This document shows positions 1,203 to 1,357 of a stretch of 42,359 nucleotides of DNA, piece by piece; position 1 is the stretch's first letter, and each line of letters begins with the position of its first letter. Under the pieces are notes generated by a model. The model was given only the letters and a program-made list of their open reading frames with translations. It made no database searches and was not told the DNA's origin. The position numbers and the translations under genes are program-made. This DNA comes from Desulfovibrionaceae bacterium (lineage in GTDB: Bacteria > Desulfobacterota > Desulfovibrionia > Desulfovibrionales > Desulfovibrionaceae), in the NCBI GenBank assembly GCA_016932995.1, contig JAFGBU010000039.1:1-42359 (forward strand), written 5' to 3'.

Positions 1203-1243
1203 ACAAAAAAGGAGCTGCGTACAAGTTGCGCACGCTGCTCCTT
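1203..1243 (-). terminator. Intrinsic terminator upstream of the RRM gene
   Basis: On the minus strand AAGGAGC and GCTCCTT pair, then one mismatch, then GCG/CGC. The stem is followed directly by TTTTTGTT. It lies about 50 nt before the RRM start, so it ends the short upstream transcript or acts as an attenuator in the RRM leader. Confidence 0.75.
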
Positions 1244-1308
1244 GTAAAACCCAGTTTCGAATCGAACTAGCTTCGGCCGCGTATCTCTCGGCCACGCCCC
1301 AACTGGCG
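1244..1308 (-). pseudogene. tRNA-like remnant (Ser/Leu-like), possible small RNA
   Basis: On the minus strand the sequence contains GTGGCCGAGAG, which matches the D-arm of class II tRNAs such as tRNA-Ser. Further on is GTTCGATTC, which resembles a T-loop. GCCAGTT and AACTGGG at the two ends pair at six of seven positions like an acceptor stem. The distance between them is only about 58 nt, and no intact anticodon arm can be drawn. I read it as a shortened, decayed tRNA gene or a tRNA-derived small RNA. It has its own promoter and terminator. Confidence 0.35.
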
Positions 1309-1328
1309 ATGCTAGATATAACTAACCC

Positions 1329-1357
1329 TACATAATTTCGTTTGAATCAGATGTCAA
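1329..1357 (-). promoter_or_regulatory. Promoter for the tRNA-like unit / RRM leader
   Basis: A perfect TTGACA (1352-1357) and TATGTA (1329-1334) are 17 bp apart on the minus strand. It begins only a few bases after the stop of the EF-hand gene, so it restarts transcription for whatever lies downstream. Confidence 0.5.

Follow-up and report, generated by a model that had tools for sequence, protein, structure and literature searches.

The Chlorobi-RRM motif lies upstream of RRM genes and may be a site of feedback on them. The parts of PMC2864571 that concern this motif describe a candidate structured RNA, named for RRM, that is 'probably' RNA and 'probably' cis-regulatory, and the same source describes leaders of ribosomal genes as being bound by their own protein. 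Cyanobacterial rbp genes encode small single-RRM proteins, and the portion of PMC9333190 that deals with them links conserved boxes in their 5′-UTRs to the cold response. A structured terminator attenuator goes unmentioned in that portion, and the likeness of these leaders to the one reported here is one of description.

The present leader lies in a stretch of 42,359 nucleotides (the window), which is contig C46 of a Desulfovibrionaceae assembly of 2.48 Mb in 49 contigs. It apparently represents an undescribed family of folded RNA leaders that end in a terminator and precede RRM genes, and is classed as a new family of RNA within a known kind, the attenuator leader of an RNA-binding-protein gene. 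Nearest in kind is Chlorobi-RRM (RF01697), whose position upstream of RRM genes is shared by this leader (97 of 101 places), as an analogy and not as membership. The Chlorobi-RRM model has 73 positions, whereas the present element combines a three-way junction with a terminator bearing a near-constant loop and occurs in Desulfovibrionales. Across ten genomes, that of the window included, no place exceeded the 45-bit cut-off of RF01697 (best 18.7 bits), and none of the sub-threshold places coincided with these leaders. As in autogenous leaders of ribosomal and other RNA-binding-protein genes, a structured 5′ leader precedes an RNA-binding-protein gene and, in this case, recurs before its paralogues; it differs from them in that no known binding site was recognised and protein binding is putative. 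With intrinsic-terminator attenuators it shares the series of promoter box, structured RNA, terminator with U tract and gene, but no covarying antiterminator was found among five candidate pairings, and its terminator loop is unusually constant. No published description of this element was found in the open-licence library searched, and two pressure-response papers (PMC4162548 and PMC3559428) held no useful content on RRM, helicase or cold.

Organisation of the leader in the window

The unit lies on the minus strand and consists, from 5′ to 3′, of an EF-hand gene, TTGACA, 17 nt, TATGTA, a structured stretch, a hairpin with six T, GGAG and the RRM gene; the promoter, structured stretch, terminator and RRM gene proposed by the sequence-only reading are thus all present, and relatives carry the same element. 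The EF-hand open reading frame (ORF list, Pfam) ends at 1366, with its stop codon at 1366-1368. The -35 box TTGACA (1352-1357) is followed after a 17-nt spacer by a weak -10-like TATGTA (1329-1334), which matches TATAAT at three of six positions, and this promoter is absent from the output of a mechanical promoter and terminator scan of the window. Within the structured stretch (1244-1317), P1 would pair CUAGC (1311-1315; columns 3-7 of alignment A2) with GCUAG (1267-1271), P2 would pair CGCC (1305-1308) with GGCG (1295-1298), and P3 would pair GGCCG (1289-1293) with CGGCC (1275-1279). P1 was placed by alignment A2, P2 and P3 by folding as well, and the 5′ strand of P2 also by the R3 alignment. 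The linker (1244-1266), delimited by the R3 alignment and column conservation, has GAACAGGUAUAUC as its counterpart in relatives. The terminator hairpin (1209-1243; folding and model R2), the upper part of whose stem was flagged as terminator-like by the mechanical scan, has 14 pairs and one A-A mismatch below the loop CAACU (1224-1228), and its U tract (1205-1210) has six T, two of which also close the stem. The gap between terminator and RRM start codon (1152) is 52 nt and contains the Shine-Dalgarno GGAG (1163-1166), a region kept in alignment A1. The RNA made from this unit is predicted to be about 118 nt long.

The RRM gene (889-1152, stop codon 886-888) encodes 88 amino acids that match Pfam RRM_1 at 78.9 bits, and its product is an ordinary RRM protein whose best-scoring solved chains are polyadenylate-binding protein (6r5k), HuD (1fxl) and 12RNP2 (2ki2). 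Between it and a tmRNA gene lies a 99-aa open reading frame on the plus strand (523-822) that has no Pfam match. The tmRNA gene (3-389 in the window; L191:3032-3385) is near a leader-bearing RRM gene in the window and in G132, and the short flanks of the 32 remaining scanned loci lack it.

Compared with dinucleotide shuffles, the terminator segment of the window folds at z -4.6, the 120-nt leader at z -3.1 and a 116-nt version at z -2.5. The minimum free energy (MFE) structure of the 116-nt version shows P2 and P3; that of the 120-nt leader does not show P1-P3, so the junction in the window rests on comparison. Among four relatives folded as single sequences, L125, L191 and L003 gave the three-way junction and L121 a partial one.

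Conservation of the fold

A plain DNA similarity search of 59 genomes (the window's own and 58 relatives) yielded for the most part short fragments, from which alone the element would have seemed unconserved, although its three best hits outside the window were, on reading, terminators before RRM genes. The leaders came to light through a search for the RRM protein, which gave 80 loci, the upstream DNA of 40 of which was inspected. Many Pseudodesulfovibrio-like genomes show a CTTGAC box, a CCAGC...GCUGG element, the linker GAACAGGUAUAUC and a hairpin with loop GCAUCUUGU, followed by a T run, a GGCGC-ACGG-GCGCC hairpin and a Shine-Dalgarno sequence. The window counterparts in the alignment are CUAGC/GCUAG for P1, CGCC/GGCG for P2 and GGCC(G)/(C)GGCC for P3. 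As predicted by comparison, the anatomy of the leader is a three-way junction (P1-P3), a conserved linker, a terminator with the near-constant loop GCAUCUUGU and a U tract.

MAFFT applied to the full leader misplaced the 5′ half of the window, and the ends were trimmed for alignment A2; RNAalifold on the untrimmed alignment recovered no more than three helices, namely P1, the terminator and the hairpin that follows it. In A2 (17 sequences, with a consensus structure set after inspecting the alignment), the share of paired cells is 92.4%, compared with 87.5% in shuffles and 33-52% when the structure is slid. Two-sided change occurs in 11 of 30 pairs, against 5.2 (sd 1.4) in shuffles, and the count of further pair types was equalled in 15 of 500 shuffles. 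At pair 4/51 the window alone has U-A, the other 16 rows having C-G. Alignment A3, with 99 matches (94 distinct) fitted to the model and hence biased towards it, is 93.1% paired, with two-sided change in 28 of 30 pairs against 13.5 (sd 1.9) and none of 500 shuffles as high; two weak extra hits among the 99 were excluded from later counts. In 47 of 80 rows the two central positions of P2 do not pair, most of these rows having A-C there.

Three covariance models were used, whose E-values are rough (short calibration): R1, whose seed contained the window; R3, made from 90 leaders in an alignment that was guided by R1 and left the window out; and R2, which covers only the terminator of 36 leaders, again without the window. 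R3 detects the window at 1206-1317 on the minus strand with 75.3 bits (E 5.1e-19), the sole place in its genome at E<=0.001, and R2 detects it at 1204-1251 with 56.9 bits. R1 finds one strong place in this genome, the runner-up being the same place on the opposite strand (E 0.55). Conservation of stems and terminator in relatives had been set beforehand as one of two tests that could refute the sequence-only reading, and it was borne out.

The elements flanking the fold also recur among the 97 RRM-linked leaders. A TTGAC is present in the 80 nt upstream of 92 of them, and in 85 it stands 37-43 nt ahead of the element, a distance at which the transcript start would fall a few nucleotides before P1. 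In the 10 nt 3′ of the stem, 91 leaders contain six or more T; of the other six, five have five T and one has four. This count was taken from the alignment, since a count from single-sequence folding (21 of 97 weak) was distorted by the following hairpin. A terminator hairpin with U tract therefore stands between promoter and gene, as in an attenuator. The terminator loop is GCATCTTGT in 49 of the 101 places matched by R1, GCATCGTGT in 17 and GCAACTTGT, the form of the window, in five. With 97 sequences weighted by 39 clusters at 80% identity, its letters C, A, U and C are conserved at 0.86, 0.94, 0.86 and 0.95, and the best linker positions reach 0.92. A hairpin 3′ of the terminator occurs in 83 of the 97 leaders, against 18.6% of mononucleotide shuffles, and is absent in the window. 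A conserved upstream open reading frame was rejected as a candidate: only 43 of the 97 leaders have an ATG in the P3 region, and the window has none there.

Distribution and association with RRM genes

At E<=0.01, R1 matched 101 places in 60 of 297 genomes of the order, a lower bound owing to stricter filters and a count that includes the seed's own genomes; the other 237 had no R1 hit. The matches span 10 of 55 genera, and only one genome, G039, lies outside the family of the window. Searched over the class at E<=0.001, R3 found 62 of 297 genomes, mostly those of R1. Over the phylum at E<=1e-4 it found two of 395, namely the window's genome and one with a weak hit that has no RRM gene downstream. 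Among that phylum hit and the six R3 hits missing from R1, L318-L321 and L296 precede RRM genes, and L317 and L322 do not. The element thus appears to be restricted to Desulfovibrionales and, within that order, to a minor part of the genomes sampled.

An RRM gene starts 44-86 nt downstream on the same strand in 97 of the 101 R1 places, covering all 60 genomes, of which 29 have one copy and 31 have two to four (27 with two, two with three and two with four). In these 60 genomes the leader is therefore tied to the gene of a candidate binding protein, the RRM protein, and to its paralogues, as expected of an autogenous leader. The window's genome has two further RRM genes, at which the leader models gave no significant hit: G000:C14:83292-83555(-) (L112), which by eye is followed by infA and has a long leader of another type, and C48:46784-47032.

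The four remaining R1 places were read by eye. L211 and L212 (32.7 bits each) and L214 (30.7 bits) are ordinary-looking terminators, and L215 (28.3 bits) lies upstream of a DEAD-box RNA helicase gene in G210. In a search of 40 of the 60 genomes with the terminator model R2, this helicase site scored 41.3 bits (E 3.4e-7), and the places listed other than RRM leaders and this site reached at most 32.8 bits. The helicase of G184, 91% identical to that of G210, has a similar leader by eye, with an R2 score of 29.1 that is within background. Both sites (G210:C1:703136-703235, L215, and G184:C1:789905-789955, L305) have a terminator loop GCAUAUUCUUGU or GCACAUUCUUGU and their own CTTGACC box before the helicase. 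The DEAD-box helicase of these two close genomes is the one credible non-RRM target and may share the leader control, as a single evolutionary case and not a general rule.

Reading by eye of 20 lower-scoring R2 places gave one RRM leader (L296), the G184 helicase leader (L305), three leader-like sites before another gene (L298, L303 and L311) and 15 places that have no RRM gene and look like ordinary terminators. The three leader-like sites, from three genomes, have a terminator CCAAGAGGCCGCGG... before a gene starting MHLGKAIRMERIMN, which we take to be aldolase-like, and appear unrelated to the RRM element.

Other leaders precede RRM genes elsewhere in the order. A second conserved type (L269-L295 and L220, from the genus of G210, and L031, L033 and L049), found mostly in RRM-infA-DEAD-box clusters and aligned for ten leaders, has a CTTGAC box, a helix resembling GUCGGUG/CACUGAC around GCGUCCAUGGGGACGC, a more extended GGUGAAAUG...UUUCACC region and a GGCG..CGCC hairpin, and shows no obvious terminator. 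L319, a weak R3 hit, is possibly intermediate between the two types. Two mutually different RRM leaders, in L062, L063, L066 and L067 (Desulfomicrobium and relatives) and in L100, L103, L104 and L108 (Desulfovibrio/Solidesulfovibrio), with sequences GGAGACGGGAAGGG... and GCACTCCAACTATCGGGCC..., look conserved by eye.

Proposed attenuation and alternative readings

We favour, at a probability of roughly 0.55, the reading that the 5′ leader of the RRM gene holds a cis-acting attenuator of transcription, at which the RRM protein would set readthrough autogenously. Attenuation is the best reading because of the position of the element, its terminator and its near-confinement to one gene class. RNA polymerase would start at about 1322, as judged from promoter spacing, and the nascent RNA would form the three-way junction and then the intrinsic terminator. 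Some transcripts would end near 1205, giving an RNA of about 118 nt, and readthrough would yield the RRM mRNA. The RRM protein or leader-sharing paralogues may bind the junction, the GCAUCUUGU-type terminator loop or both and so set readthrough, in a loop that would match RRM production to need, possibly at low temperature. Comparison of the predicted structures among relatives establishes the leader, its helices, the terminator, the near-constant loop and the tie to RRM genes; the start site, the ligand and the sign of control are inferred.

Three features suggest a protein that reads the sequence: the near-constancy of the loop, the conservation of the linker and the occurrence of the leader before paralogous RRM genes. 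The encoded RRM protein would be the economical candidate. A mutually exclusive antiterminator, as looked for in an attenuator, did not emerge among five candidate pairings, which showed no clear excess over permuted partners (18 of 200 permutations did at least as well as the best, which joins the junction to the terminator 5′ arm); an attenuator that depends on a protein could do without one. Should readthrough be regulated, a protein is therefore likelier than a competing fold. The antiterminator, a linker-loop pairing and a kiss between the P2 loop and the downstream hairpin had seemed promising by eye (CCCGUG/CACGGG) and were rejected for this lack of clear excess. Strict matching or coevolution of protein and loop is counted against by the close paralogues L123 and L158 of G237, whose loops differ (G vs U) though their proteins are only about 0.04 changes per column apart.

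The sequence-only reading had left open an attenuator, a small RNA or a decayed tRNA gene. The attenuator is well supported by comparison, through its position before RRM genes in 97 of 101 places, the covarying stems and the conserved U tract, and its further suggestion that the RRM protein uses the attenuator to control itself would fit the mechanism outlined above. A tRNA gene or tRNA-like relic is the least probable reading and was rejected. The letters GTGGCCGAG and GTTCGATTC do resemble tRNA arms, but the stretch aligns with P1-P3 of the conserved junction, and these helices and the terminator covary across homologous leaders. Over the leader, a cloverleaf was recognised neither by ARAGORN, which in the window called a tmRNA, a tRNA-Met and a tRNA-Leu elsewhere, nor by Rfam (RF00005), and ARAGORN likewise called no tRNA in 33 scanned loci out of the 97 RRM-linked leaders. 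More widely, Rfam at gathering score found only the tmRNA and tRNA-Met in the window, both away from the leader, and at E up to 5 one sub-threshold match over it, which lay on the opposite strand and scored 18.1 of 75 bits with a snoRNA family of nematodes. Rfam 15 at gathering score had no match in 13 RRM loci, nine of them carrying this leader according to an R1 scan of 85 sources (the window, the 80 RRM loci and four others), and low-threshold scans of three leaders gave one, none and four matches, all far under gathering scores. Scarcely more probable is a plain terminator of the EF-hand gene accompanied by chance structure: the element does lie shortly 3′ of that reading frame, but a promoter box separates the EF-hand stop from it, and promoter box, junction and terminator recur jointly before RRM genes in 60 genomes. 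A small RNA derived from the 5′-UTR, in which the product of about 118 nt would be a stable trans-acting RNA or a sponge for the RRM protein and the terminator would serve mainly to make it, is improbable, if less so. A conserved promoter and terminator do frame a compact fold, and loop and linker are conserved enough for pairing or binding sites. Such an RNA is compatible with attenuation, of which it would be the terminated product. A free small RNA would however be expected alone somewhere, and the 101 R1 places in the order include only four without an RRM gene, which by eye are three ordinary-looking terminators and one helicase leader, not solo RNAs.

The main rival, itself unlikely, is a cold- or stress-responsive attenuator that acts without a protein ligand, its leader refolding or polymerase or its factors raising readthrough at low temperature, so that RRM proteins are made once RNA structure becomes a problem. 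In a related genus, where a helicase search matched in 33 of 36 genomes, 23 of the 30 helicase loci read carry RRM, infA (IF-1) and DEAD-box helicase genes in succession, a set that presumably resembles cold-shock genes, and a terminator leader of similar kind precedes the DEAD-box helicase gene of G210 and G184. In those RRM-infA-helicase clusters the RRM gene has another, related-looking leader by eye (21 read). On a tree built from 118 RRM rows, which comprise 95 of the 97 bearing this leader, 21 with the second type and two others from the window's genome, the leader label requires four changes against a shuffled mean of 21.1, on few columns and with many forks unresolved. A pure thermosensor, by contrast, needs neither a near-constant loop nor conserved linker letters, and a competing fold with covariation was not found among the five pairings. 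Temperature control stands as the main rival to protein-set attenuation, or as a second layer on it, because of the RRM-infA-helicase clusters and the cold boxes of cyanobacterial rbp genes.

For the protein-set attenuator, a tentative extension, which we hold somewhat less probable than not, is an undescribed family in which RRM proteins would sense their own level through the terminator loop GCAUCUUGU, bringing paralogues and, in some species, a DEAD-box helicase into one circuit of RNA-chaperone homeostasis. It is unusual for a terminator to be conserved in its loop as well as its stem, and this suggests that the hairpin is itself what a regulator acts on. To our knowledge, the way in which the dose of small single-RRM proteins is set in bacteria has been little studied, and about 100 natural variants of a covarying leader that is almost exclusive to RRM genes offer a handle on the binding targets of these proteins and on the timing of their production.
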